Shown here: positions 27,272 through 41,979 of the stretch, piece after piece | How the letters are laid out: every line of letters starts with the position of its first letter | How positions within the stretch are numbered: the stretch's first letter is position 1 | Assembly (NCBI GenBank): GCA_018335195.1 | Contig: JAGXKN010000029.1 | Coordinates: 1 to 41,979, forward strand | DNA from: Desulfobacterales bacterium | GTDB lineage: Bacteria; Desulfobacterota; Desulfobacteria; Desulfobacterales; Desulfosalsimonadaceae | DNA length: 41,979 bases | Reading direction: 5' to 3' | Translations under genes and position numbers: made by a program | Notes under the pieces: model-generated | Seen by the model: only the letters and a program-made list of their open reading frames with translations | The model's database searches: none | What the model was told of the DNA's origin: nothing

Positions 27272-28843
27272 ATGAAAAATACAAAGGCGCCGCCTATGCC
27301 GGAAAATCATCCCTGGAAAATTCTGCTCATTGACGATGAGCCCAGCATCCGCAAGGTCACGGGCATCGCCCTGGAGGATGCCGGCTACCGGGTTCAAACC
27401 GCTGAGGACGGGGAAAAGGGCCTGGCGGCATGCCGGGAGTTCGCCCCGCACATTGTCATCACCGACATCCGGATGCCGAAAATGGACGGCATGGCCGTAC
27501 TCGAATCGGTCAAAAATGAATTTCCCGAAACCGAGGTGATCGTGGTCACCGCCTACGGAGAAATGGACGTGGCTATCCGGGCGCTTCAGCTTGACGCCTC
27601 GGATTTCATCACCAAGCCGGTCCACGATGACGCCCTTCACGTTGCAATACAGCGGGCCATCAAGCGATATAACGACAAAAAGCAGCTTGCCGACTACACA
27701 CGTTTTCTGGAAGAAGGGTGGAACCAGACGACCCGGGAACTCATGGAGGCCTTTCATTTTGAAAACAGCTTGATTGAAAGTTCCATGGACGGAATCGTGG
27801 GCTGTGATGCAGAAGAAACCATCATCACCTACAACAAGAGCATGGAATCCATGCTCGGCTACACAAAAAGCGAAGTGATCCGCAGCAAAACCCTCTCCGG
27901 ACTTTTTTCGCCAAAGGATTACCAGCAGCTTAAGTCTGACATGGCCGGCAACGGATTCGGCGGGGAAAACCGGCTGTTTGTCTATGAAACCACGCTTCTG
28001 ACCAAATCCGGCAATCACCTGCCGGTCCAGGTATCTGCGGCCACCATTATCCTCGAGACCGGACCGGCCGGGCTGGTGCTGTTTTTCCGGGATTTACGGG
28101 AAATCCGGCGCCTGGAACGCGAAATGGAGGACCAGGCCAAAATCCTGCATCAGGACAAGATGATGTCTCTGGGGCGGCTGGCTGCCAGCGTGGTGCACGA
28201 GATCAATAACCCGCTTTCCGGCATCCTCAATTACGTCCGCCTGATGATACGGATCCTTTCGAGAAAGGCGCTCGATGACCAGAGCCGGCAGCGATTTTCC
28301 TCCTACCTGTCAATCGTGGAAAACGAAACCGACCGGTGCTGCCGCATCGTGTCCAATCTGCTGACCTTTTCCCGAAAGTCGCCGGCGGAATTCGCCCCGG
28401 TTTCCGTGGAGGCCCTGATTGACCGCTGCGTTCTGCTCAGTCAGCACAAACTGACCCTTTCCAATATCGAGCTTCACTATCACACCGCAGAAAACACACC
28501 ACGGGTACACGGCGATATCAACCAGCTCCAGCAATGCCTGATCAACCTGATTTTCAACGCAATTGATGCCATGGCCGACGGCGGCCGCCTGGAGATCAAA
28601 GCCGGATATGATGCCGCAGCCCGTCGGGTCACCATTTCCGTGACAGACACCGGCACAGGGATTTCCGAAACAGATCTGCCCCGCATTTACGAGCCGTTTT
28701 ACACCACTAAGCAGGAAGGCTACGGGGTGGGCCTCGGGCTTTCCACGGTCTACGGGATCATGGCCGCCCACAGCGGAACTGTTGATGTCCGCTCCGCCCC
28801 GGGCAAAGGCACCACGTTTTATCTGCACCTGCCTGCGGGATGA
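27272..28843 (+). CDS. Hybrid sensor histidine kinase (REC-PAS-HisKA-HATPase)
   Basis: 523-residue cytoplasmic signalling protein with no membrane helix. An N-terminal receiver domain (15-135) has an intact phosphoacceptor D65 (TDIRMPKMDG), T93 and K115 (FITKPV). A PAS domain (about 165-280) precedes a HisKA domain with His309 in SVVHEINNPLSG and a HATPase domain (INLIFNAIDAM, VTDTGTGISE, GVGLGLSTVYG). The receiver at the N-terminus suggests it takes phosphate from another kinase and tunes its own activity. No DNA-binding partner is adjacent. It is followed by a perfect palindrome and then the Hdr operon, so it may belong to that circuit. Its natural promoter appears displaced or replaced by the MITE directly upstream. 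Confidence 0.93.
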   Translation: MKNTKAPPMPENHPWKILLIDDEPSIRKVTGIALEDAGYRVQTAEDGEKGLAACREFAPHIVITDIRMPKMDGMAVLESVKNEFPETEVIVVTAYGEMDVAIRALQLDASDFITKPVHDDALHVAIQRAIKRYNDKKQLADYTRFLEEGWNQTTRELMEAFHFENSLIESSMDGIVGCDAEETIITYNKSMESMLGYTKSEVIRSKTLSGLFSPKDYQQLKSDMAGNGFGGENRLFVYETTLLTKSGNHLPVQVSAATIILETGPAGLVLFFRDLREIRRLEREMEDQAKILHQDKMMSLGRLAASVVHEINNPLSGILNYVRLMIRILSRKALDDQSRQRFSSYLSIVENETDRCCRIVSNLLTFSRKSPAEFAPVSVEALIDRCVLLSQHKLTLSNIELHYHTAENTPRVHGDINQLQQCLINLIFNAIDAMADGGRLEIKAGYDAAARRVTISVTDTGTGISETDLPRIYEPFYTTKQEGYGVGLGLSTVYGIMAAHSGTVDVRSAPGKGTTFYLHLPAG

Positions 28844-29059: not shown

Positions 29060-29127
29060 TCTTGATTCATACGACATGCCGTTTCAAAAGGCATTTTTTC
29101 TTTCCTGCCATCAAAAAGGAGTCGGCT

Positions 29128-29556
29128 GTGACTTCTGATGCGCACCGCAAAACCGTTCTTATCGTCGATGATGATCCCGACGTCCGCCTGTTTGTCTCCG
29201 GTCTGATGAAAAGCTCCGGATACCGGCCTGTCAGCGCGCAGAACCGGCAGCACGGCCTGGACAAGGCCCGCACCGAACATCCCGACTGCATCATTTTGAA
29301 CTGCACCATGGGCGGAGAAGACGGCATATCGCTTTACAAGAGCTTAAAAACCCAGAACGATCTGCAGCAAATCCCGGTTGTAATGGTTTCCCCGGTCTCC
29401 AGGGAAGTCATCGGGCAGCACTGGATGCTGCGCCACGGATCGGTGGCCGGGCCGGAGGCTTACCTGCAGTCGCCTCCGGAAGCGGGCAGCATCGTGCGCG
29501 TGGTGGGCGAACTTATCGGAACCCGGCACGCAGCGCATCCGGGAAAAGAAAAATAA
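29128..29556 (+). CDS. Stand-alone degenerate receiver-domain protein
   Basis: 142-residue single receiver domain without an output domain. The acidic pair is present (VDDDPDVR, residues 14-16). The phosphoacceptor aspartate is replaced by Asn58 (ILNCTMGGEDG), and the conserved lysine is replaced by Ser115 (AYLQSPPE), both confirmed in the codons AAC and TCG. It should therefore not be phosphorylated in the normal way and may act as a binding or adaptor domain. The GTG at 29128 follows AAAAAGGAG with good spacing; a longer frame from 29062 lacks a ribosome site. It is the first gene of the Hdr operon and 23 nt ahead of the HdrA-GltD gene. Confidence 0.87.
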   Translation: MTSDAHRKTVLIVDDDPDVRLFVSGLMKSSGYRPVSAQNRQHGLDKARTEHPDCIILNCTMGGEDGISLYKSLKTQNDLQQIPVVMVSPVSREVIGQHWMLRHGSVAGPEAYLQSPPEAGSIVRVVGELIGTRHAAHPGKEK

Positions 29557-29579: not shown

Positions 29580-32500
29580 ATGACCCAAGCCATTGCTCCC
29601 CAAATCTCCGCGGAACCCCGCATTGGTTTCTACATCTGCCATTGCGGCATCAACATCGCCTACAAGGTCCGGGTCCAGGAAGTTGCGGCCTGGATGGCAA
29701 ACCAGGCAAATATCGTCATATCCCGGGATTACAAGTTCATGTGCTCGGATCCGGGCCAGGAAATGATTGAAACCGACATCCGCGACTACGGATTAAACCG
29801 CGTGGTGGTGGCCTCCTGTTCGCCCCGGCTGCATGAGAAGACCTTTCAGGGTGTGTGCAGCAAGGCGGGCATCAATCCCTATCTATTCCAGATGGCCTCT
29901 GTTCGCGAACAGGTCTCTTGGGTGACCGCGGATGAAGACGAGGCTACCCAAAAAGCCAAAACCCTGGCAGCCGCAGCGGTCAACCGGGTCCGGTTTCATC
30001 GTCCCCTGCAGACCCGGGAAGTCGGGGTTCACCCGGATACAGTGGTCGTGGGCGGCGGAATCGCAGGCATGCAGGCGGCCCTCGATATTGCCGCAGGCGG
30101 CAAAAAGGTCTACCTTGTGGAAAAGGACACCACCATCGGCGGCCACATGCTCCAGTTTGACAAGACCTTCCCCACGCTGGACTGCGCGGCATGCATCGGC
30201 ACGCCCAAAATGGTGGACGTGGGCCAGCACCCCGACATCGAACTGCTGTCCTACAGCGAGGTTGAATCCGTATCCGGCTATATCGGCAATTACACCGTAA
30301 ACGTACGCAAGCATCCCAGATACGTCAGAGAGGATGCCTGCACCGGCTGCGGGCAGTGCGCCGAAAACTGCCCGGTCACCATGGCAAGCACCTGGGATGC
30401 GGGCATCGGAACCCGGAAAGCCATTTACCGCAGTTTCCCCCAGTCCGTTCCCATTACCTTCTGTATCGACAAAAAGGACCGGGCGCCCTGCGTTTCGGCA
30501 TGCCCGGCCCACGCAAACGTCCAGGGGTACGTCCAGCTTATCGGCCAGGGCAAGTATGAAGCCGCCCTGCGGCTGATCATGGAAAAAATCCCCCTTCCCG
30601 GCGTGCTGGGGCGGGTCTGCCCGCACCCTTGCGAAACCCGCTGCCGCCGCCAGGAAATCGATGCATCGGTTTCCATCCGGGAACTGAAACGATTTGTCGC
30701 AGATGCCGTAGATCTCGATTCCCTCCCACTGCCGGAAATCACCCCGAGGCAGGAAAAAGTGGCGATTATCGGATCCGGCCCCGCGGGCCTGACCGCAGCC
30801 TGGGACCTGGCCCTGGCCGGATACCAGGTGACAATCTTCGAGGCCATGGAGCAGCTCGGCGGAATGCTCAGATACGGAATCCCGGACTACCGGCTGCCGC
30901 CCGGGGTTCTGGACCGGGAAATCGCATACCTGCTTAAAACCGGAATTACTGCCAAAACCGGCCAGCGCCTCGGCCGGGAAATTACCCTGAAATCCCTGGA
31001 AGACGAAGGATTTTCCGCCGTTTTTATCGGCACCGGTGCAAGCGGGGGCAAAAGCCCGGGCATTCCCGGGCAGGACGCCGAAGGGATTACGGATGCAGTG
31101 GATTTTCTGCGCCGGGTTAATGCCGGGGACATGAGCCCGCCAGGCTCACAGGTGGCGGTTATCGGCGGGGGCAACGTGGCCCTTGACGCGGCCCGGGCCG
31201 CCCTGCGGCTGGGCGCAGAAACCGTTACCATCGTATACCGCCGGGACCGCGGGGAAATGCCCGCATTTGCCGAAGAAATCACGGAAGCCGAAAAAGAGGG
31301 GATCCGGCTGGAAGTACATGCCGCACCAAAAGGCGTTATCACCGAAGACGCCGACGTTTCCGGCCTGGAATGCATCCGCACCCGACCCGGCCCGCCGGAT
31401 GAAAGCGGCCGCCGCAGGCCCGAACCGATTGCCGGATCCGAGTTTTCCATTTCCTGCAATTCGGTCATCAGCGCCATCGGCCAGCAGGTTCTCCCGGACT
31501 GGGAGGATGCCGGCATTTCCCTGGAATGTGACGCGGGCAGCCGAATCATCATTAACCCGGAAACCATGCAAACCTGCATCCCCCAAGTATTTGCAGCCGG
31601 AGACGCGGTAACCGGACCGGCCACCGCCGTCGAAGCGGTCGCCGCCGGACACCGGGCAGCAGACAACATCCGGCAATACATTGAAGACCCGAACTCTCTT
31701 GCCGCGGAGGAAACCGCCTCAGAAACCGCAAAGCCGGAACCCGGCGACTGGACGCCCCTGCCTGAGAATATTGAACCCTGCGCCCGGGTCGAAACCTCGG
31801 AACTGGCCCTGCAGGACCGCGCCTGCGGATTTGACGAGGTCTGCACCGGCCTGAGTGCCGAGCAGGCAGCATATGAAGCCCGGCGCTGCATCAACTGCGG
31901 CGGCTGCTGCGAATGCATGGAATGCGTAAAGACCTGCGAGGCAAATGCCATTGATCACACCATGATGCCCGAGGAAAAGGAAATCCGGGCGGGAAGCATC
32001 ATCCTGGCCACCGGATACGATCTGCTGGATCCCACTTCCATGCACCAGTACGGCTACGGCCGATATCCCAACGTCTTTACCAGCCTGGAATTCGAACGCC
32101 TCAGCAACGCCACCGGCCCCACGGGCGGCCGTATCATGATGCGCGATGCGAACTGGGAATTTACAAAACCGCCCGAAAGCGTGGCCCTGCTTCACTGCAT
32201 CGGCAGCCGGGACGCCAATTACCACGAATACTGCAGCCGGGTCTGCTGCATGTATGCGCTCAAGTATTCCCACCTCATTAAGGAAAAAGTGGGGCATCAC
32301 GCGCAGGTATATGAATTTTACATCGACATGCGCTGCTTTGGCAAAAACTACGAGGAGTTTTACAAGCGATGCCAGCAGGAAGGCACGGTCTTTATCCGAG
32401 GCAAGGTGGCTGAAATCACAGACACGGCCCGAAGCCCGGAGGAGGAAGGCAAACTCGTGGCAATCGGCGAGGACACGCTGCTGGGCCGGCAGGTCCGGGT

Positions 32501-33020
32501 GCCGGTGGACATGGCCGTACTTTGCGTGGCCATGGAGGCACGGTCCGAGGCCGCAGAAGTGGGACGCATTTTCGGCATCTCCCAGGGGGCGGACGGGTTT
32601 TTCCTGGAATCGCATCCCAAGCTGGGGCCGATGGATACGCCAACAGACGGGGTGTTTGTGGCCGGGGCCTGCCAGTCGCCAAAGGACATCCCGGACACCG
32701 TGGCCCAGGCCTCGGGCGCGGCAGCCAAATCGCTTTCCCTGACCTCCCGCGGGCGGGTGACCATCTCCTCGATGATCTCGCATATCGACCCGGACATCTG
32801 CATCGGATGCCAGACGTGCATCGGTTTGTGCCCATACGGGGCCATTGAATATAACGCGCGCCGCGGGGTATCCGTGGTCAACGAGGCGCTGTGCAAGGGA
32901 TGCGGTAGCTGCTCGGGATTTTGTCCAAGCGGGGCTGCGCGCGTACGCCATTTTCAGAAAAAACAGCTTCTGGCTGAATTTGACGGCCTGATGGACGCCA
33001 TTGCCGAGGTCGGCGTATAA
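29580..33020 (+). CDS. HdrA-like flavoprotein with inserted GltD/NfnB-type NAD(P)H oxidoreductase module
   Basis: 1146-residue multidomain electron-transfer protein, probably cytoplasmic. The HdrA part starts with the CHCG motif (20-23), has an FAD loop at 154-170 (VVVGGGIAGMQAA) and the first ferredoxin motif CTGCGQCAENCP at 254-265. A GltD/NfnB-like module then intervenes (about 290-720), with its own Cys-rich N-terminus (C304, C308, C347, C351, C355), an FAD loop at 394-407 and an NAD(P) loop at 525-539. HdrA resumes with a Cys-rich segment at 770-786 and CSRVCCMYALK at 885-895, and ends with two [4Fe-4S] sites (1074-1084, 1105-1115). The insert would let HdrA use NAD(P)H directly. With MvhD and HdrBC encoded downstream, it fits flavin-based electron bifurcation; the partner pair is unknown. 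Confidence 0.9.
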   Translation: MTQAIAPQISAEPRIGFYICHCGINIAYKVRVQEVAAWMANQANIVISRDYKFMCSDPGQEMIETDIRDYGLNRVVVASCSPRLHEKTFQGVCSKAGINPYLFQMASVREQVSWVTADEDEATQKAKTLAAAAVNRVRFHRPLQTREVGVHPDTVVVGGGIAGMQAALDIAAGGKKVYLVEKDTTIGGHMLQFDKTFPTLDCAACIGTPKMVDVGQHPDIELLSYSEVESVSGYIGNYTVNVRKHPRYVREDACTGCGQCAENCPVTMASTWDAGIGTRKAIYRSFPQSVPITFCIDKKDRAPCVSACPAHANVQGYVQLIGQGKYEAALRLIMEKIPLPGVLGRVCPHPCETRCRRQEIDASVSIRELKRFVADAVDLDSLPLPEITPRQEKVAIIGSGPAGLTAAWDLALAGYQVTIFEAMEQLGGMLRYGIPDYRLPPGVLDREIAYLLKTGITAKTGQRLGREITLKSLEDEGFSAVFIGTGASGGKSPGIPGQDAEGITDAVDFLRRVNAGDMSPPGSQVAVIGGGNVALDAARAALRLGAETVTIVYRRDRGEMPAFAEEITEAEKEGIRLEVHAAPKGVITEDADVSGLECIRTRPGPPDESGRRRPEPIAGSEFSISCNSVISAIGQQVLPDWEDAGISLECDAGSRIIINPETMQTCIPQVFAAGDAVTGPATAVEAVAAGHRAADNIRQYIEDPNSLAAEETASETAKPEPGDWTPLPENIEPCARVETSELALQDRACGFDEVCTGLSAEQAAYEARRCINCGGCCECMECVKTCEANAIDHTMMPEEKEIRAGSIILATGYDLLDPTSMHQYGYGRYPNVFTSLEFERLSNATGPTGGRIMMRDANWEFTKPPESVALLHCIGSRDANYHEYCSRVCCMYALKYSHLIKEKVGHHAQVYEFYIDMRCFGKNYEEFYKRCQQEGTVFIRGKVAEITDTARSPEEEGKLVAIGEDTLLGRQVRVPVDMAVLCVAMEARSEAAEVGRIFGISQGADGFFLESHPKLGPMDTPTDGVFVAGACQSPKDIPDTVAQASGAAAKSLSLTSRGRVTISSMISHIDPDICIGCQTCIGLCPYGAIEYNARRGVSVVNEALCKGCGSCSGFCPSGAARVRHFQKKQLLAEFDGLMDAIAEVGV

Positions 33021-33131: not shown

Positions 33132-33557
33132 ATGGAAGAACAATTTGATCCCGTAATTGTCGCGTTTGTCTGCAACTGGTGTACCTACACAGCCTCCGAC
33201 CTGGCCGGCACCTCCAGGCTGGGATATCCCAAGAACATCCGCCTCATCCGGGTGATGTGCACCGGCATGGTCGACACCCAGTACATCATCAAGGCGTTTC
33301 TGGAGGGCGTGGACGGCGTGCTGGTCTCGGGATGTCATCCCGGCGACTGCCACTACATCAACGGCAACTTCAAGGCCCGGCGCCGGATGAAGCTGTTGAA
33401 AACCATCCTGCCGCAGTTCGGCATCGAGGAAAACCGGCTCCGGCTGACATGGATCGGGGCCAGCGACGGCATCGCCTTTGCCGAAACCATGCAGCGGCTG
33501 GTCGATCAGATCAGGGAACTCGGGCCGAATCCGGCCCGCGCACAGCAGATCATTTAA
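33132..33557 (+). CDS. mvhD: MvhD-like iron-sulfur electron carrier
   Basis: 141-residue MvhD/HdrD-delta-type protein with a [2Fe-2S] site. Ligands are visible as C15-x2-C18 (CNWCTYTAS), C43 in VMCTGMV and GCHPGDCHYINGN. The end, IRELGPNPA, is also family-typical and is shared with the tail of QmoB. By family MvhD passes electrons between a donor (hydrogenase, formate or NADH dehydrogenase) and HdrA. Here the donor is likely the NAD(P)H module fused into the preceding HdrA or the FrhB-like protein that follows 15 nt later. The ATG has a weak ribosome site. Confidence 0.92.
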   Translation: MEEQFDPVIVAFVCNWCTYTASDLAGTSRLGYPKNIRLIRVMCTGMVDTQYIIKAFLEGVDGVLVSGCHPGDCHYINGNFKARRRMKLLKTILPQFGIEENRLRLTWIGASDGIAFAETMQRLVDQIRELGPNPARAQQII

Positions 33558-33572
33558 ACCGGGAGACCGCAT

Positions 33573-34724
33573 ATGTCCCGCACCGCGGATATCAACATCA
33601 AAGACAATCACATCGGCGAAACAATCGGGCAATTTTTGAAAAAAATCCTGGAAAGCGATGAAGTCGCCGCCGTGCTGACACCGCACCGCCCGGCGGAAAA
33701 AGACATGATCATGCCCCGGTTCATAACAGACCCGGAACACCTGCAGGGCGCAGAACCCCTGTCTCCGGCTTTTGCCGTAAACTCGGCGCGCCTGGTTTCC
33801 AGGCTGACCCGGCAATCTCCCGGCGGCACCATTGCAGCCCTTCTTCGGCCCTGCGAAATCCGGGCATTTGTCGAACTGGTCAAGCTCAACCAGGGCAGCA
33901 CCGAAAACCTGATCATAATCGGCACGGATTGCCCGGGCGCCCTGCAGAACGCGGACTTTTTCGCTTTTGCGGAAAAGCACGGAGACAAGGCAACAGCCCG
34001 TTTCCTGGAAACCGCATTTTCCGATGACCAAGCCTCGGCCGAAGATCTGCAGATCGCCCCGGCCTGCCGCGCATGCACACAGCCCACCCCGGAGGGCGCG
34101 GACCTGGCCATCGGGCTGTTCGGCCTGCAGCCGGGACCGAAAATCCAGGTATACGCACAGACCGAACGCGGAGAGGTACTGCTGGAAAAACTGGGCCTGG
34201 AAGAGGCACAGGCGGATGAAAAACACCAATCCGCAGCCGAAGACCTGATTTCCCGCCGCAGCCAGGCCCGGCAGGAAATGATCGAACAGACCCGGGCGGC
34301 CACAGACACCATGGAAAAACTGGCGGATTATTTTTCCCGGTGCATCAACTGTTACAACTGCCGCACGGCCTGCCCGGTCTGTTACTGCCGGGAATGCGTT
34401 TTTGCCACGGATGTTTTCGACCACGAGCCGGTGCAGTACATGAAATGGGCCGGCCGCCGGGGTTCGGTGAAAATGCCTACGGATACGCTGTTTTTCCATC
34501 TCACCCGCATGGCCCATATCAGCACGGCGTGCGTGGGCTGCGGCCAGTGCGCCAACGTCTGCCCGAGCAACATCCCCCTGGCAGAACTGTTCATATCGGT
34601 TGCCGAACAGACCCAGTCGGCATTCAGCTACCAGGCCGGGAAAAGCATTGACGAACAACCGCCCCTGGCAGTGTTCCAGGAGGATGAATTCCAGGAAATC
34701 GTGGGGATCGAAAATGGAAGCTGA
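33573..34724 (+). CDS. FrhB/FdhB-like protein with two [4Fe-4S] sites
   Basis: 383-residue protein related to the beta subunit of coenzyme F420 hydrogenase/dehydrogenase. IAALLRPCEIRAFVEL (88-102) and IIIGTDCPG (115-122) mark the FrhB-like part. C-terminal HdrC-like [4Fe-4S] motifs are C257-C260-C263-C267 and C320-C323-C326-C330; extra cysteines (C270, C272, C275) lie between. FrhB-like proteins often bind FAD and serve different substrates, so F420 use cannot be assumed in this organism. The ATG has a GGGAG site. The gene overlaps the next one by 11 nt, so translation is probably coupled. It may bring electrons from a redox partner into the Hdr complex. Confidence 0.85.
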   Translation: MSRTADINIKDNHIGETIGQFLKKILESDEVAAVLTPHRPAEKDMIMPRFITDPEHLQGAEPLSPAFAVNSARLVSRLTRQSPGGTIAALLRPCEIRAFVELVKLNQGSTENLIIIGTDCPGALQNADFFAFAEKHGDKATARFLETAFSDDQASAEDLQIAPACRACTQPTPEGADLAIGLFGLQPGPKIQVYAQTERGEVLLEKLGLEEAQADEKHQSAAEDLISRRSQARQEMIEQTRAATDTMEKLADYFSRCINCYNCRTACPVCYCRECVFATDVFDHEPVQYMKWAGRRGSVKMPTDTLFFHLTRMAHISTACVGCGQCANVCPSNIPLAELFISVAEQTQSAFSYQAGKSIDEQPPLAVFQEDEFQEIVGIENGS

Positions 34725-37700
34725 AAGCATATCAAAAAAAAAGGGCAGTGCAATGGTCGTGGGCGGCGGCGTCAGCGGGATGCGTGCGGCACTGGACCTG
34801 GCCGAGACCGGCTACCATGTTACCCTCATTGAGGAGAAATCCCATATCGGCGGGGTGGTCAGCCAACTGGACCACCAGTTTCCCACCGACGGATGCGGGA
34901 TATGCAAAATGCTGCCCCACGCCGATGCCGAGCACGTGCTGCAGCAGTGCGTGCGAAGGGGCCTGTCCCACGAAAACATCATCATCCACCTGCAAACCCG
35001 TGTGATGTCCGTGTCCGGGGAGCACGGCAACTTCACTGTCACCCTGCAGCAGCACCCCAACCCGGTAGATCCGGACCGATGCATCGGATGCGGGCTCTGC
35101 ATTCCGGTATGCCCCGTGGATGTTGCAGACCCGTTTAATGCCGGCAAAGTCGCCTGCAAGGCCATCGGTCCGCCCACGCCGCACATGGCTGCCGGCCCCT
35201 ACCGCATCGACACCGAGACATGCACCCAGTGCGGCAAGTGCCGGGATGTCTGTCCCACAGACGCCATCCGTTTACCCGCAGAAGACCGCAAATCCTTTAC
35301 CATCCTGGTGGTCGACGATGAACAGATCATCCGGGATTCGCTTTCGGAATGGCTGGGCGAGGAAGGCGGCTTTTCCGTGATTACCGCCGAGTCCGGGGAA
35401 AAAGCCCTGGAACGGATCGAAGAACAACCCGTGGACCTGATGCTGGCGGATATCAAGATGCCCGGCATGGACGGGATCACCCTGCTGGAAAAAGCCCTGG
35501 AAATCCAGGAACAAATGGCGGTCATGATGATTACCGCCTATGCCACCGTGGACACCGCGGTTTCGGCCATGAAGCAAGGGGCGGCCGATTACCTGGTCAA
35601 GCCCTTTGATCCCGACGATCTGCTGCCAAAAATCGCGGCGATGTATCATGAACTTACGATTCCGCCCGGCCCGGAAATCCGGGTCGGCGCCATTGTGATC
35701 GCCGGCGGCACGGACGAATACAACCCGGCTTCCGGAAAAAACCCGTTCGGATATAAAATCATAGAAGATGTGGTCACCGGCCCGGAGTTCGAAAGGATGC
35801 TCAGCCCGGTGGGCCCGACCGGAGGGCGCCTGGTGCGCCTTTCCGACCAGCGCCCCCTGCGGCGCATTGCCTGGGTCATGTGCGTGGGCTCCAGGGATAT
35901 TCAGGCAGAGGCGGACTACTGCTCCGGGGTATGCTGCATGTATTCCCTCAAGCAGGCCCGCCTGGCGCAAAAGGCGGCCCGGGAGCAGGGCGCGGAAATC
36001 GAGACGGTACTCTATTACATGGACATGCGGACATTTGGCAAATCCGGCCAGCAGTACCGGGACGCCGCAGAAGCCGAAGGCGCGGTATGCAAGCGCAGCC
36101 GCGTGCATTCCATTGTCGGCGAGGAGACGACCGGGGATCTGTGCATCCGGGCGGCAGACCCTTCCGGGCAGATCAACGAGGACCGCTACGACCTGGCGGT
36201 GCTGGCCACGGGGCAGCGCCCCTCGGCAAAGGTCGCGGAGCTGGCGGAAATGCTCGGCATTGAGCTTGATCCCCGGGGCTTTATTAACACCCGGGAATTC
36301 TCTCTGACCCGGACTTCGGGCAACGGCGTGCTGGCCGCAGGATCGTGTACCGGCAGAAAAGACATCAGCGATGCGATCATATGCGGCAGCTCCGCAGCCT
36401 TTCATGCCTCGCGCCTCCTTCATGCCGGCGGCGGCAGCCTGCGCGAGCAACCCGCGCCGCCTGAAACCACCGCAGATATTTTCCACGAACCGCCCCGGGT
36501 GTTTACTGCGGTATGCGGGTGCAGCGGGGCCGTGTCCGGAATTTTCGATCCGGAGGCATTTTCCGGGAAATGCTATGGCGACCCGTCGCTTTGCAGCGTG
36601 GAAACCGCTGACTGGCTGTGCACAGAGGAAGGGATTGCCGAACTGACGGAAAATATCCGGCAGTCTGTTGCCAACCGGGTGGTTATCGGCGCATGCCGTC
36701 CCCTTTGCGCACCGGAAAAGAAAAAGGCGATAGCCCGGGCCGTCTCTCTTTTGCCGGAGCTGATTGAAATCGTGGATCTGCGCTCGCGGGTACCGGCCGC
36801 ATCCGAAGAAAGCCCGGAGCAGCAAAAAACCGACACGCGGGAAACCATGAACATTTGGCTGGAAATGGCCATATCCCGGGTAAAGCTGGCGGATCCGGCA
36901 TTTGCCCCGGAGATCTCAACAGGCCGCTCCGTGCTGGTGGTCGGCGGCGGCATCGCCGGAATGACCGCCGCCCTGGGCGTTGCCGATCACGGCTACGGGG
37001 CATACCTGGTGGAGAAAGCCGACCGCCTGGGCGGCAATCTCAACTGGCTGAATCAGACCATCGAGGGAGATGACATTGCCCAGCTTTCCGAGTATACCCG
37101 ATCGCGGGTGGAAAACCATCCGATGATCACGATTTACACAAACACCCGGGTTTCCGAAACCCGCGGCACGGGGGGCGCGTTTACCACCACGCTGCAAACC
37201 GGAAATGAAGCGGGTTTTTCCGTGAATCACGGGGCGGTAATCCTGGCCACCGGCGGCGGGCAGGCCGAGACCGAATCCTTCGGCCGCGGCACCGACTCCC
37301 GGATTATCACCCAGCAGGAACTGGAATCCCGGATCCGCGAAAATGATCTGGATCCCGAAAAGATCAACAGCATGTGCATGATCCTGTGCGCAGGCACCCG
37401 GCAGCCGCCGAAAAACTACTGCAGCCGGATCTGCTGTGCAAGCGCCCTGAAACATGCCCTGCACGTGAAGGAAAAAAATCCCGAAGCCGGGGTCTATGTT
37501 TTATACCGGGACATGATGGCATACGGATTTCTGGAGGCCTGGTTTACCCGGGCCAGAAAGGCCGGGGTCATATTCATCGCCTACACCCCGGAAACCAGCC
37601 CTGAGGTATCCGCGCAACAAGACGCGGTCCGGATTAGGGCAACCGAACCGGTACTCCAGCAGGAGGTGGAAATCTCCGCAGACCTTCTGGTGCTTGCCAC

Positions 37701-38172
37701 GGGAATTGAACCGGCAGAATGCGGGTCGCTTGCCAGAAGCTTTGGCGCGGACACGGATGAACACGGATTTTTCCGGGAGGCCGAGCCCAAGTGGCAGCCG
37801 GTGGGATCTCTGGCCCCGGGGGTGTATGCCTGCGGAATCGGGCTCCGGCCTGCGAGCATTGCCGAGTCCGTGGCCTCTGCCGAGGCCGCAGCCCAGCAGG
37901 CGGTGATCCTGCTGGGCCGGGATCATCTGCCTGCACCGAAAAGTATCGCCCGGGTCCGGCACAGCCTGTGTTCTTTGTGCCAAAACTGTATTGCGGCCTG
38001 TGCATACGGCGCCCGGACATACGATCGGCAAGCGCAAATGATCATCGTGGATCCGGAAGCATGCCGCGGATGCGGCGCATGTGCGTCTGCCTGCCCGAAC
38101 TTTGCCGCATACGTGGAAGGCTTTGCCCCGGGCCAGATGCTTTCCATTCTGGAGGCGGCCGCAGATAATTAG
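34714..38172 (+). CDS. Tandem HdrA-HdrA flavoprotein with embedded response-regulator receiver domain
   Basis: 1152-residue fusion. First HdrA unit: FAD loop at 13-27 (AMVVGGGVSGMRAAL), C61 and C64 (CGICKM), ferredoxin motifs at 123-133 and 170-180. A complete receiver domain follows at about 194-312, with the acid pair D201-D202, phosphoacceptor D246 (LADIKMPGMDG), T274 and K296 (YLVKPF). HdrA then resumes at GAIVIAGGT (325), with CSGVCCMYSLK at 403-413. Second HdrA unit: CGCSG at 601-605, FAD loop at 740-754, CSRICCASALK at 903-913 and two [4Fe-4S] sites at 1086-1096 and 1117-1127. The second unit lacks the inner ferredoxin segment. The ATG at 34714 overlaps the upstream gene; the longer frame to 34600 has no support. 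All receiver residues are intact, so phosphorylation of the enzyme itself is plausible. Confidence 0.92.
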   Translation: MEAESISKKKGSAMVVGGGVSGMRAALDLAETGYHVTLIEEKSHIGGVVSQLDHQFPTDGCGICKMLPHADAEHVLQQCVRRGLSHENIIIHLQTRVMSVSGEHGNFTVTLQQHPNPVDPDRCIGCGLCIPVCPVDVADPFNAGKVACKAIGPPTPHMAAGPYRIDTETCTQCGKCRDVCPTDAIRLPAEDRKSFTILVVDDEQIIRDSLSEWLGEEGGFSVITAESGEKALERIEEQPVDLMLADIKMPGMDGITLLEKALEIQEQMAVMMITAYATVDTAVSAMKQGAADYLVKPFDPDDLLPKIAAMYHELTIPPGPEIRVGAIVIAGGTDEYNPASGKNPFGYKIIEDVVTGPEFERMLSPVGPTGGRLVRLSDQRPLRRIAWVMCVGSRDIQAEADYCSGVCCMYSLKQARLAQKAAREQGAEIETVLYYMDMRTFGKSGQQYRDAAEAEGAVCKRSRVHSIVGEETTGDLCIRAADPSGQINEDRYDLAVLATGQRPSAKVAELAEMLGIELDPRGFINTREFSLTRTSGNGVLAAGSCTGRKDISDAIICGSSAAFHASRLLHAGGGSLREQPAPPETTADIFHEPPRVFTAVCGCSGAVSGIFDPEAFSGKCYGDPSLCSVETADWLCTEEGIAELTENIRQSVANRVVIGACRPLCAPEKKKAIARAVSLLPELIEIVDLRSRVPAASEESPEQQKTDTRETMNIWLEMAISRVKLADPAFAPEISTGRSVLVVGGGIAGMTAALGVADHGYGAYLVEKADRLGGNLNWLNQTIEGDDIAQLSEYTRSRVENHPMITIYTNTRVSETRGTGGAFTTTLQTGNEAGFSVNHGAVILATGGGQAETESFGRGTDSRIITQQELESRIRENDLDPEKINSMCMILCAGTRQPPKNYCSRICCASALKHALHVKEKNPEAGVYVLYRDMMAYGFLEAWFTRARKAGVIFIAYTPETSPEVSAQQDAVRIRATEPVLQQEVEISADLLVLATGIEPAECGSLARSFGADTDEHGFFREAEPKWQPVGSLAPGVYACGIGLRPASIAESVASAEAAAQQAVILLGRDHLPAPKSIARVRHSLCSLCQNCIAACAYGARTYDRQAQMIIVDPEACRGCGACASACPNFAAYVEGFAPGQMLSILEAAADN

Positions 38173-38303: not shown

Positions 38304-38882
38304 ATGCGCAGGAAAAATGAAGCACCGCAGCCCTGCATTCGTCCCGAACAGCCGGGCCCGGCGCTGGAGCGGGTCAGAGAAAGAGTGCGGACCTGCATCC
38401 AGTGCGGCACGTGCACCGGATCTTGTCCCAATGCATTTGCCATGGATGCCACCCCGCGAAAGCTCTGGCGCCTGGTGCTCATGGGCCAGACCCGGGAGAT
38501 TTTTGAGACCCGCACCTTTGCACTTTGCTCGGATTGCTACTGCTGCACGCTGCGCTGTCCCCGGGGACTTGCGCTCACCGATGCCATGGCCGATCTCAAG
38601 CAGATTGCCGCAGCCGAAAAACACGGCGGGGATCCGGCGTGCACGGCATTTTACCGCGCATTTCTCCGGTCCGCCCGCCAATACGGAAGGGTCCAGGAAA
38701 CCCGGCTGATGGCAAGATACCTGGCGGTGATGACTCCCCGCCGGCCGCTGATGCCATTTCGGTTTTCCGGGCTGGGACTGCAGATGATCAAAAAGGGTAA
38801 AATCAGCCTGCGCCGGCCTGCAGGCGGCAGAACTCTGGAAGGCCTTTTCGCCAGAATCGAATCCAGGAGAAACGGGCAATGA
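38304..38882 (+). CDS. hdrC: Heterodisulfide reductase subunit C-like protein
   Basis: 192-residue HdrC-like iron-sulfur protein. Two [4Fe-4S] sites are visible: C31-C34-C37-C41 (CIQCGTCTGSCP) and C75-C78-C81-C85 (CSDCYCCTLRCP). C-terminal residues beyond 130 are basic and shared with other bacterial HdrC homologues. HdrC relays electrons from HdrA to HdrB. The ATG has an AAGGAGAC site. Its stop overlaps the hdrB start (ATGA), the usual hdrCB arrangement. Confidence 0.93.
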   Translation: MRRKNEAPQPCIRPEQPGPALERVRERVRTCIQCGTCTGSCPNAFAMDATPRKLWRLVLMGQTREIFETRTFALCSDCYCCTLRCPRGLALTDAMADLKQIAAAEKHGGDPACTAFYRAFLRSARQYGRVQETRLMARYLAVMTPRRPLMPFRFSGLGLQMIKKGKISLRRPAGGRTLEGLFARIESRRNGQ

Positions 38883-39739
38883 AATACCTTTACTATCCGG
38901 GTTGTTCACTGGAATCCACGGCCCGGGAATACGACCTGGCAACCCGGGCGATAATGCACGCACTGGGTGCGGAGCTTATTGAAATCCCCGACTGGACGTG
39001 CTGCGGGGCCACGGCCGCCAAGGCCGTGGACCGCCGCCTGGCCCTGGCAATGCCCGCGGTCAGCCTGTCCCTGGCCGAAACCGTGGAATCGGCAGCCGAC
39101 GTACTGGTACCGTGCAGCGCCTGCTACCTCAACCTCAAGCAGGTACACGAAACCGCGGCCACCGCCCCCCGAACCCTGGCGGAAATCAACGAAATTCTTG
39201 CGGAGGAATCCCTGCACTACTCGGGAAAAGCCCGTCCGCGCCACATACTCGACATTCTTTCAAAAGACATCGGTCCAACCGGAATCCTGCAGCAGATCAC
39301 ACACAGCCTTTCCGGTTTGCGTGTGGCTCCCTACTACGGCTGCCAGTGTCTTCGGCCGTACCGGGTTTTTGACGACCCGGAGGCGCCGACCTCAATGGAC
39401 GCCTTGCTGGCAGCCGCCGGGGCGGACCTGTATCCCTGGTCCATGGCTGCCAGATGCTGCGGGGCCTCGCACATGACCACAAACGCGGAGGTCAGCAAGG
39501 AACTGGTCTTTCGCATTTTAAAGTCCGCAAGCGGCGCGGATGCCATCGCTACGGTCTGCCCCATGTGCCAGATGAACCTGGAGGGATACCAGGGATGGAT
39601 ATCTTCCCGCTACGGTGAAGATGTGCGGATTCCGGTTTATTACCTGCCCCAGCTTCTGGGCCTGGCCATGGGTTTGCCGGCCCGGGACCTGGGTCTGGAT
39701 GCCAAATCCGCCCGCACAGTGGCCCCGTCGGCTCAATGA
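38879..39739 (+). CDS. hdrB: Heterodisulfide reductase subunit B-like protein
   Basis: 286-residue HdrB-like protein with both CCG domains complete: C9, C41-C42, C79, C82 and C155, C193-C194, C227, C230. In methanogens these bind two non-cubane [4Fe-4S] clusters that reduce the CoM-CoB disulfide. Bacteria lack that substrate, so HdrB here must act on another acceptor, perhaps a disulfide or ferredoxin-linked partner. The intact cysteines argue for a catalytic subunit rather than a remnant. It overlaps hdrC by 4 nt, and the kinase gene follows after 19 nt. Confidence 0.95.
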   Translation: MKYLYYPGCSLESTAREYDLATRAIMHALGAELIEIPDWTCCGATAAKAVDRRLALAMPAVSLSLAETVESAADVLVPCSACYLNLKQVHETAATAPRTLAEINEILAEESLHYSGKARPRHILDILSKDIGPTGILQQITHSLSGLRVAPYYGCQCLRPYRVFDDPEAPTSMDALLAAAGADLYPWSMAARCCGASHMTTNAEVSKELVFRILKSASGADAIATVCPMCQMNLEGYQGWISSRYGEDVRIPVYYLPQLLGLAMGLPARDLGLDAKSARTVAPSAQ

Positions 39740-39758: not shown

Positions 39759-41480
39759 ATGTTAAAATTTTTCACATATATGCGAACCCGCACGGCCTTC
39801 AAGCTGCTGTTTCTCATGGTCACGGGAACCGCCCTGCTGATGTGCATTACCTTCTGGGCCTGGTCCGGCATGGACACGGACCGGCAAACATTGCCGCTCG
39901 TAAAAGCCGTCCTGCTGCTGGCCATGTTCGCCTTCGCCGGGGCCGCGGTACTGATTTTCTTCATGGGCGAGCAAATTGCGCGCAAACAGGCCGCACTCAA
40001 CAAGCAAAAGCAGAAATACCGAAACCTTTTCGAGCTGGTGCCCTGCGAGATCGCGGTGCTGAATACGAATTTCCGGCTGATCCACTTCAATCACAGGTTT
40101 GCTGAAAAATTCAATCCGAAAATCGGCGAATACTGCTTTCGCGCGTACAAGGGCCGCGAGCAGAAATGCGTACCCTGCCCGGTGGAAAAAACCTTCGAAG
40201 ACGGGCTGCCCCATTTCAGCGAGGAAACCGGACACACCAGAGACGGGGCAACCGCCCACTGGCTGGTGGTCACCTCCCCGCAAAAAGACGATGATACCGG
40301 AGAGGTTACGGGCGCGCTGGAAATGACCGTTGATCTCACGGATTTGAAGCTGCTCGAAGACAAATTGAAAAAATCGGAAAAAAAGTATAAAGATATATTC
40401 AACAACATTGCCAATCCCATCTTTGTCATCGACAGGGAAGATTTCACCATTCTCGACTGCAACAAAAGCGTTCAGGGAGTTTACGGATACAGTAAATCCG
40501 AGATTTGCGGCACCCGGTTTACGGATCTGTTCGTTTCCGACGACCGGAAATACTTCGAGCATTTAATGAAAACCCGGAATGAAATCCACCGGGCCAGGCA
40601 CCTGCGGAAAAGCGAAAAAGCCCTGTTTGTCAACATCCGCATTTCTCCTTCGGAATACGAGGGCAAATCCGTGTATCTGGTGACCACCAGCGACATCACC
40701 CAGCGCCTGGAAGCCGAGCAGCAGCTCATCCAGGCAAGCAAAATGGCCACCCTCGGGGAAATGGCCACCGGCGTGGCCCACGAACTCAACCAGCCTCTGT
40801 CTGTGATCAAGACGGCAAGCAGCTATTTGATGAAAAAAATCAAGAACAACACCCCGATTTCGGAGGAAAACCTTTATACCATGGCCTCGGAGATCGACTC
40901 CCACATCAACCGGGCCACGAAAATCATCAACCACATGCGCGAATTCGGCCGCAAATCCGAAATCACCACGGAAAATATCAACGTCAACCCGGTGATTGAA
41001 AAGGCTTTTGAAATTTTTGCCCAGCAGCTCAAGCTGCGGGGCATTCACGTGGTCTGGGAACTCGGCCCGGATCTGCCCAGCGTAAGGGCCGATGCCAGCA
41101 AGCTTGAACAGGTGATCATCAATCTGCTGGTCAATGCCCGGGACGCCATCGAAGAGCACTGGGGCCAGCGCCCGTCTGATACAGACGCCGAGGATAAGAA
41201 AATCCTTCTGCGCTCGCATTCAGACGGCCGTTTTGTTACCATCGAGGTCGAGGATACGGGAAGCGGTATACCGCCCGACTTGGTGGATAAGATTTTCGAA
41301 CCTTTCTTCACCACCAAGGATGCGGGAAAAGGCACCGGGCTGGGCCTTTCGATTTCCTACAGCATCATCAAGGAATGGGGGGCCACCATCCACGCCGAGC
41401 CGGGCCGCAGCCAGGGCGCCCGGTTTATGATCCGCTTTCCGGTTCCAAAGCAGAACACAACGCCGCCAGAGGGGGCATGA
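39759..41480 (+). CDS. Membrane PAS-domain sensor histidine kinase
   Basis: 573-residue kinase. Two hydrophobic segments (about 13-35 and 47-69) place it in the inner membrane with almost no periplasmic loop, so it probably senses a cytoplasmic or membrane signal. PAS 1 (about 85-200) carries C126, C137 and C140; PAS 2 (205-320) has none of these. HisKA has His341 in [11 protein letters not shown], and the HATPase contains [19 protein letters not shown] and [11 protein letters not shown]. The gene sits 19 nt after hdrB in the Hdr operon with a GGGGAG site. The obvious candidate substrate encoded nearby is the receiver inside HdrA-REC-HdrA. That pairing is inferred from linkage only. Confidence 0.92.
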
Positions 41481-41486
41481 TCAGAA

Positions 41487-41979
41487 ATGCTGCTGCAGTA
41501 CGAACAGATCGGTGAAATCTTTGACTGCCTTTCACTGGGCGTGATCATTTTGTCCACGGACCGAAAGATTTGCTCCATTAACCGGTCCGCCCAGCAGTTG
41601 ACCGGATTTTCGGCATCCGAGACCGTCGGCCGCTACTGCTACCACGTGTTTCTCGATTACCTGTGCGGCGGCAGGTGCAAGTTTCTCGAATCCGAAGACG
41701 AAATCCGCCAGACTCTGGTCTCGGATATCGAGGTCACCGACCAGCAGAACAAGGCATCCTCCATTACCAAGATCGAATCGCCGATTTACGGCCAAAACGG
41801 CGAGATGATCGGATGCATGGAGGTTTTCCAGGATCACAGCGCTTTCCGGGAACTCATCAAGCGCATCCGGTTTGACGACCTCCGGCTCAAGCTGATTTTG
41901 GACAACCTGGATATCGGCATCCTGACCCTGGACCGGGGCAACCATGTCACGTTTGTCAACACCAAGGCCGAACAGATTA
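41487..41979 (+). CDS. PAS-domain regulator, 3' end beyond the window
   Basis: Partial gene, at least 164 residues, starting 6 nt after the kinase stop. The translation from the ATG at 41487 shows one PAS domain (about 8-120) with cysteines C51, C60 and C64 (YCYHVF, LCGGRC). A second PAS begins near residue 131 (LRLKLILDNLDIGILTLDRG). In sulfate reducers this PAS-PAS start often leads to a sigma-54 activator, which would fit the sigma-54-type promoter at 29043, but a kinase is also possible. Without the C-terminus the class is open. There is no obvious ribosome site, so translation may be coupled to the kinase gene. Confidence 0.75.
   Translation, partial: MLLQYEQIGEIFDCLSLGVIILSTDRKICSINRSAQQLTGFSASETVGRYCYHVFLDYLCGGRCKFLESEDEIRQTLVSDIEVTDQQNKASSITKIESPIYGQNGEMIGCMEVFQDHSAFRELIKRIRFDDLRLKLILDNLDIGILTLDRGNHVTFVNTKAEQI

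Follow-up and report, generated by a model that had tools for sequence, protein, structure and literature searches.

A conserved receiver domain inside a tandem HdrA flavoprotein of Desulfobacterales may place an Hdr complex under phosphorylation control

The protein encoded at positions 34714-38172 of a 41,979-nucleotide stretch of DNA from a Desulfobacterales bacterium (GCA_018335195.1, contig JAGXKN010000029.1, forward strand, positions 1-41,979; the whole of this stretch is referred to below as the window) joins two HdrA units in one chain and carries a complete, conserved receiver (REC) domain inside the first of them. It is reasonably probable, though well short of certain, that this receiver is a working phospho-switch, and that kinases encoded in the same gene cluster phosphorylate its acceptor aspartate, D246, and so adjust the Hdr complex after translation.

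The tandem protein, here called HdrAA, is encoded by a single open frame that runs from the ATG at 34714 to the stop at 38172 and specifies 1152 residues (open reading frame translation). Its parts are as follows.

34714-38172, forward strand: HdrA(REC)-HdrA fusion protein, 1152 residues (open reading frame, Pfam, AlphaFold2 model, structure matches)
34744-35283, forward strand: first HdrA half, FAD-binding N-terminal part with inserted 2x[4Fe-4S] ferredoxin, residues about 11-190
35296-35643, forward strand: receiver domain, residues 195-310, with D201, D202, acceptor D246, T274 and K296
35674-36453, forward strand: remainder of the first HdrA flavin fold, residues about 321-580
36490-38169, forward strand: second HdrA half, with an HdrA N-terminal-type domain (593-735), an FAD domain without inserted ferredoxin (737-1078) and a C-terminal 2x[4Fe-4S] part (1079-1134)

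Along the chain the motifs read CIGCGLC (residue 123), CTQCGKC (170), VVDDE (199), ADIKMP (245), MITAY (272), VKPFD (295) and GAIVIAGGT (325). An earlier interpretation of this DNA made from the sequence alone (the sequence-only reading) had placed a complete receiver between the second ferredoxin motif, ending at 180, and the restart of the flavin fold at 325, with a second HdrA following in the same chain; both claims hold, with every residue at the position assigned to it. The Pfam family Response_reg matches residues 197-307 (E 2.6e-30, model positions 1-110 of 111) at 105.3 bits against a gathering threshold of 30.2, which makes the domain a member of the receiver family. Prediction of the structure, which the sequence-only reading had proposed as a check, recovered the receiver fold and both HdrA halves. 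In the AlphaFold2 model (mean predicted local distance difference test score 74.4, built with 11 sequences), residues 196-315 show the (beta-alpha)5 order, and residues 194-319 match the solved receiver 3crn_A (Z 21.8, root-mean-square deviation 1.3 A over 125 residues); residues 9-573 match HdrA 8rwn_A (Z 24.7) and residues 592-1140 match HdrA 7bkd_A (Z 29.2). When the chain is aligned to HdrA 9sfi_A, the matched stretch that ends with the inserted ferredoxin stops at 311 and the next begins at 317; the receiver thus stands where canonical HdrA has only a link of about five residues to join its inserted ferredoxin to the flavin fold.

Conservation was assessed in an alignment of 67 tandem HdrA proteins, 66 of them with the receiver, drawn from 60 neighbourhoods, the window and named loci; the duplicates L077, L078 and L126 and the tandem of L021 (scored as HdrL) were left out, and the REC-less tandem of L022 was included. 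Asp stands at the acceptor position in 66/66 REC-bearing proteins, window included, so that the conservation of D246 on which the sequence-only reading had made its proposal depend is complete, and all five active-site residues (D201, D202, D246, T274 and K296, or DDDTK) are kept in 63/66, again including the protein of the window. The three exceptions all belong to family f112 (L123-L125) and read DPDAH or TPDAK, and DDDTK is also intact by eye in two further loci outside the order (L159, L160). With 63 of 66 intact, a pseudoreceiver as the general case was rejected. The lengths of the two junctions are near constant, although the letters of the linkers vary: the spacing from Cys180 to D202 is 22 residues in 59/59 proteins (the four that lack the inserted ferredoxin not counted), and that from K296 to G325 is 29 residues in 59/63. 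Among nine homologues the mean pairwise identity of the receiver (0.69) compares with 0.70 for the first FAD stretch, 0.62 for the ferredoxin, 0.57 for the resumed first FAD domain, 0.54 for the second FAD domain, 0.57 for the C-terminal ferredoxin and 0.38 for the middle of the chain. The cysteines of the inserted ferredoxin (123/126/129/133 and 170/173/176/180) are complete in 62/67 rows, window included. Genus g133 (L119-L122) has lost the inserted ferredoxin of the first HdrA yet keeps an intact receiver, which stands in its place (DDDTK in 4/4).

HdrAA lies within a cluster of genes for Hdr subunits and signalling proteins, and the other features of the window are the following.

27272-28843, forward strand: REC-PAS-HisKA-HATPase hybrid kinase (Pfam; top NCBIfam match AtoS, below cut-off)
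29062-29556, forward strand: stand-alone receiver-like protein with Asn at the expected acceptor Asp (ILNCT, by eye)
29580-33020, forward strand: HdrL, an HdrA with a GltD-like NAD(P)H-oxidoreductase insert
33132-33557, forward strand: MvhD/FlpD
33573-34724, forward strand: FrhB/FdhB-type subunit with two Fer4 motifs; the last 11 bases of the gene overlap the start of hdrAA
38304-38882, forward strand: HdrC (NCBIfam match below cut-off)
38879-39739, forward strand: HdrB with CCG domains, overlapping hdrC by 4 bases (NCBIfam match below cut-off)
39759-41480, forward strand: sensor histidine kinase, PAS-PAS-HisKA-HATPase, with a Cys-rich PAS motif
41487-41978, forward strand: PAS region of a protein that runs past the end of the window; the full-length counterpart in L013 is a sigma-54 activator and has no REC

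The layout is operon-like, as judged from the overlaps between the FrhB-type gene and hdrAA and between hdrC and hdrB, and the HdrB, HdrC and MvhD partners of an HdrA are all present. The receiver-like protein just upstream of hdrL is probably not phosphorylated because of the Asn at its acceptor position; its nearest relatives in the receiver tree described below are the stand-alone receivers of L013, L070, L015, L014 and L081. Across the loci the recurrent order is [REC-kinase]-HdrL-MvhD-FrhB-HdrAA(REC)-HdrC-HdrB-kinase-REC-kinase, with HdrL upstream in 59/60 loci, MvhD in 49/60 and FrhB in 55/60, and with HdrC downstream in 48/62 and HdrB in 51/62 (gene labels from phmmer with few reference proteins and a greedy choice of open reading frames). 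Judging from the subunits present (the GltD-like part of HdrL, MvhD, FrhB and HdrB/C), the complex probably bifurcates or confurcates electrons in an NAD(P)H-linked reaction that involves ferredoxin and a disulfide, for which DsrC is a candidate.

The histidine kinase that the sequence-only reading had seen in the operon at 39759 is confirmed by Pfam and is accompanied by the hybrid kinase at 27272-28843; close relatives have a third kinase, a REC-kinase, beyond the point where the window ends. Four of the 66 loci have less than 5 kb downstream, among them the window, whose contig ends too soon, and were excluded from the kinase counts. A kinase lies within 6 kb downstream in 58/62 loci (on the same strand in 52), and only 2/57 loci with both sides available have a kinase on neither side. 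Orthologues of the two kinases were defined by bit score, with thresholds set after the two-peaked score list was seen, and were counted anywhere in the fetched stretch (up to 20 kb). By this definition, kinases like that at 39759 (at least 180 bits, in fact at least 240) occur in 50/59 stretches with an intact receiver and REC-kinases (at least 150 bits) in 51/59, with either kinase in 53/59 and both in 48/59; across 20 REC-less control stretches the highest corresponding scores are 132 and 61 bits, respectively. That both kinases keep recurring close to intact receivers speaks for phosphorylation. The top NCBIfam matches agree in type, the receiver with AtoC and both window kinases with AtoS, but all fall far below the cut-offs for membership (226 and 246 of 646 bits for the kinases; 95 of 714 for the receiver, with the AtoC model matched over its receiver part only). 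Among 51 kinases like that at 39759, window included, CxxCH is present in 43 and the Cys-rich PAS motif in 41 (the window kinase itself has a 21-residue Cys-rich PAS motif and no CxxCH), and these motifs suggest redox sensing. In the f112 trio the best kinases in the stretch reach 71-75 bits; a 53% identical kinase does occur about 220 kb away in one of the three genomes, and the other two have 39-42% identical kinases elsewhere. The idea that a degenerate receiver implies a lost kinase is weakened accordingly, since adjacency alone differs and the three cases represent one lineage.

A search for the architecture, which the sequence-only reading had proposed as a check, shows that it recurs in homologues. 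A related-locus search returned 12 loci, of which eight (L013-L020) encode the same single-chain protein at 46-91% identity; among the others, L021 and L022 are REC-less tandems, L023 is a split REC-less HdrA and L024 matches the receiver only. A junction profile (with 4-8 candidates scored per genome in the large searches, so that the counts are lower bounds, and with overlapping family, order, class and phylum samples) matched 3/9 genomes of the same genus and 15/36 of the family at E <= 1e-50, 154/389 of the order at E <= 1e-50 and 145/389 at E <= 1e-70, and, at E <= 1e-60, 110/291 of the class and 14/395 of the phylum sample, eight of the 14 lying outside the order. The stricter figure for the order omits nine genomes with a best E between 1e-53 and 1e-61, whose reported matches are short and include at least one class of other REC proteins; a few of the 145 matches are cut by a contig end. 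Outside the phylum, coverage came from the related-locus search, which finds close relatives. A profile for the REC-less tandem matched 92/96 genomes of the order at E <= 1e-150 (matches not each inspected). The HdrA-HdrA tandem was therefore rejected as the novelty, and the receiver, not the tandem, is the unusual part.

A tree built from 230 receivers of these neighbourhoods (FastTree, 119 columns, few for the number of rows; the f112 receivers possibly not among them) unites the receivers of 63 HdrA proteins and three USP-REC-USP proteins in one clade with support 97, and the USP-REC-USP receivers are nested inside the HdrA receivers with support 95. Taken together, the topology suggests that the receiver was probably inserted once into HdrA and was then copied into a stress protein of the same cluster. 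USP-REC-USP proteins of about 440 residues were seen in L071, L072 and L073, where they adjoin hdrB, and at L040:1054-2376 (Pfam checked in L040 only).

REC-less relatives provide both controls and parallels. Ten REC-less tandems in the order MvhD-222 residues-307 residues (L130-L139) are accompanied in 9/10 cases by a stand-alone receiver, a kinase and a hybrid kinase, the kinases of L131 being on the other strand. One of the ten (L130) is a copy in the genome of the window itself (C30), where the MTHFR-type neighbours are confirmed by Pfam, and there alone; these operons suggest that the reduction of methylene-tetrahydrofolate may be under two-component control as well. None of ten TGA-bearing REC-less HdrAA stretches has a same-strand kinase downstream, although that of L141 extends only about 2.6 kb in this direction; upstream kinases are present in three, and L146 carries a hybrid kinase on the opposite strand. 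An in-frame TGA, probably for selenocysteine, was seen in the same genome (C32:12874-13353) and in many REC-less HdrAA frames. Eleven further stretches comprise eight REC-less candidates (L150-L157), one cut inside HdrAA (L158) and the two noted above that carry the receiver (L159, L160). Downstream of the REC-less HdrL-MvhD-FrhB groups of L150 and L151 lie two stand-alone receivers and a kinase; in L152, L155 and L157 no such receivers or kinase were found in the stretch fetched. The stretches of L153 and L154 are cut short, L156 is another arrangement labelled HdrL, and in L158, from the same order, both kinases follow HdrAA. Judged from their gene neighbourhoods, receivers with no predicted DNA-binding output accompany several Hdr operons, whether fused or free.

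The mechanism that these data point to begins with an insertion, probably a single one, of the receiver into the ferredoxin-flavin link of the first HdrA of an HdrL-MvhD-FrhB-HdrAA-HdrC-HdrB oxidoreductase. The inferred phosphate donors are the neighbouring AtoS/NtrB-like kinases, which would detect the redox state with a haem-c and/or Cys-rich PAS sensor and would phosphorylate D246. Because the links at both ends are of near-fixed length, phosphorylation would be expected to shift the receiver against the flavin domain and the ferredoxin, altering local electron transfer and adjusting the enzyme without new transcription. A more specific version, in which phosphorylation of D246 according to the redox state sensed gates the exit of electrons (open/closed or coupled/uncoupled) through the link to the inserted ferredoxin, is tentative and on balance doubtful. 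It draws on passages of PMC12350162, which describe the inserted ferredoxin-like domain of solved Hdr complexes as the place where electrons are anticipated to leave and where partners bind, with electron transfer seemingly gated by a mobile arm; the receiver could act as such a gate because it sits on the link of the anticipated exit ferredoxin.

Several observations weigh against a phospho-switch. By score, neither kinase is present in 6/59 intact-receiver stretches (L018, L080, L081, L087, L100, L113); in four of the six cases a kinase of 52-56% identity is encoded elsewhere in the genome, the kinase of L100 lies just beyond the fetched stretch, and the genome of L087 has no such kinase at E <= 1e-60. 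In 37/57 loci there is a further receiver within 9 kb, either free-standing or joined to a sigma-54 domain, which the kinases could serve instead. The f112 trio keeps the insert with a degenerate active site, and the fold can therefore persist without phosphorylation, while the g133 proteins, with no inserted ferredoxin, speak against a switch that acts on that ferredoxin alone. The spread is patchy within the genus and the family, although some of the genomes are incomplete. The stand-alone receivers of L150 and L151 come from another receiver subfamily and are therefore a parallel and not an ancestor, which weakens a strict Rosetta-stone argument.

Alternatively, the receiver may be phosphorylated for the purpose of docking, as a tether to a membrane kinase or USP-type partner or for dimerisation, leaving electron transfer in HdrA unchanged. 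The nesting of the USP-REC-USP receivers of L071-L073 in the HdrA-receiver clade makes shared partners possible, a USP protein and a stand-alone receiver follow hdrB in L123 (f112), and the receiver is retained where the neighbouring ferredoxin is lost; however, the near-fixed junctions on both sides suit rigid coupling better than a tether, which would presumably sit more easily at a chain end, and this explanation appears unlikely. The signal could also run in reverse, with HdrA as the sensor and the redox state of its flavin or clusters altering the gain or loss of phosphate by the receiver, which would report electron load to the kinases as a trigger enzyme or phosphate sink. The presence of two kinases in the window and a third, a REC-kinase, in close relatives is consistent with such an arrangement, as are receivers with sigma-54 domains within 9 kb in 7/57 loci, which such a signal could reach; the sigma-54 activator adjoining the kinase in L013 lacks a receiver, however, and a reversed signal appears unlikely as well. 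A mere structural spacer, or a pseudoreceiver that is never phosphorylated, is a very improbable account of the domain: the active site has degenerated in the three f112 proteins, but all five residues are kept in 63/66 proteins, and the receiver is conserved at least as well as other parts of the chain and equally with the first FAD stretch. A frame error or misassembly fusing separate genes, the artefact that the sequence-only reading had named as its refutation, can practically be dismissed, as can a chance arrangement, since the same single chain is found in 66 distinct genes, window included, with carriers among single-contig genomes (G203, G270, G280), and nothing was found in its favour.

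Compared with known systems, both halves of HdrAA resemble in sequence and fold the HdrA of the HdrABC-MvhAGD, Fdh-HdrABC and Elp-Hdr complexes (PDB 5odc, 7bkd, 8rvu, 9sfi), with which the cluster shares inserted and C-terminal ferredoxins, FAD domains and genes for MvhD, FrhB/FdhB, HdrB and HdrC. Unlike those HdrAs, the chain contains two HdrA units, the second without an inserted ferredoxin, and a receiver after the ferredoxin of the first. The first half has the FAD domain with inserted ferredoxin and conserved cysteines typical of HdrA, but the three curated NCBIfam models score below their cut-offs (597 bits against 1100 for HdrA2, and 490 against 1400 and 467 against 1300 for the HdrA models); on sequence grounds HdrAA is homologous to HdrA but is not the methanogen enzyme, and none of the 25 best NCBIfam matches covers the architecture. 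Locus VIII of Desulfobacterium autotrophicum HRM2 likewise has a tandem hdrL/hdrA4 with genes for a formate dehydrogenase B-type subunit, HdrB and HdrC; the passages of that account dealing with the locus make no mention of a receiver in HdrA4 and identify no MvhD protein for it (PMC2702500). The REC-less HdrAA/MTHFR-type operons share HdrAA, MvhD, a receiver and kinases, but their receiver is a separate protein. The statement of the sequence-only reading that receivers normally drive DNA-binding or enzyme outputs is fair as a generalization; it needs the qualification that, according to passages of PMC5847659, receivers joined to metabolic enzymes, including thioredoxin reductase, have already been described and place activity under environmental control. 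That REC-enzyme combination is a close parallel, as the HdrA flavin domains share the thioredoxin-reductase fold (e.g., 7aaw_B); here, by contrast, the receiver is embedded in the flavin domain of HdrA, usually with kinases nearby. A full-text literature search (titles and abstracts, with most subscription journals and preprints outside its coverage) found no description of a receiver inside HdrA. The fusion of a receiver to a metabolic enzyme is thus known, and its position within HdrA is the new part.

To our knowledge, how electron-bifurcating complexes of anaerobes are adjusted on a fast time scale is largely an open question. A conserved phospho-acceptor in HdrA, matched in 145/389 sampled genomes of the order, offers a direct handle in the form of a single Asp with candidate kinases in the same cluster, to which the natural pseudoreceiver (f112) and ferredoxin-less (g133) variants add. 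A receiver built into the flavin enzyme itself, usually with matching sensor kinases nearby, suggests that many relatives of the sulfate reducers may switch a predicted bifurcating flavin enzyme directly by phosphorylation. If so, two-component control would reach from transcription to core energy metabolism, and would do so in bacteria of importance to the turnover of carbon and sulfur in the sea.

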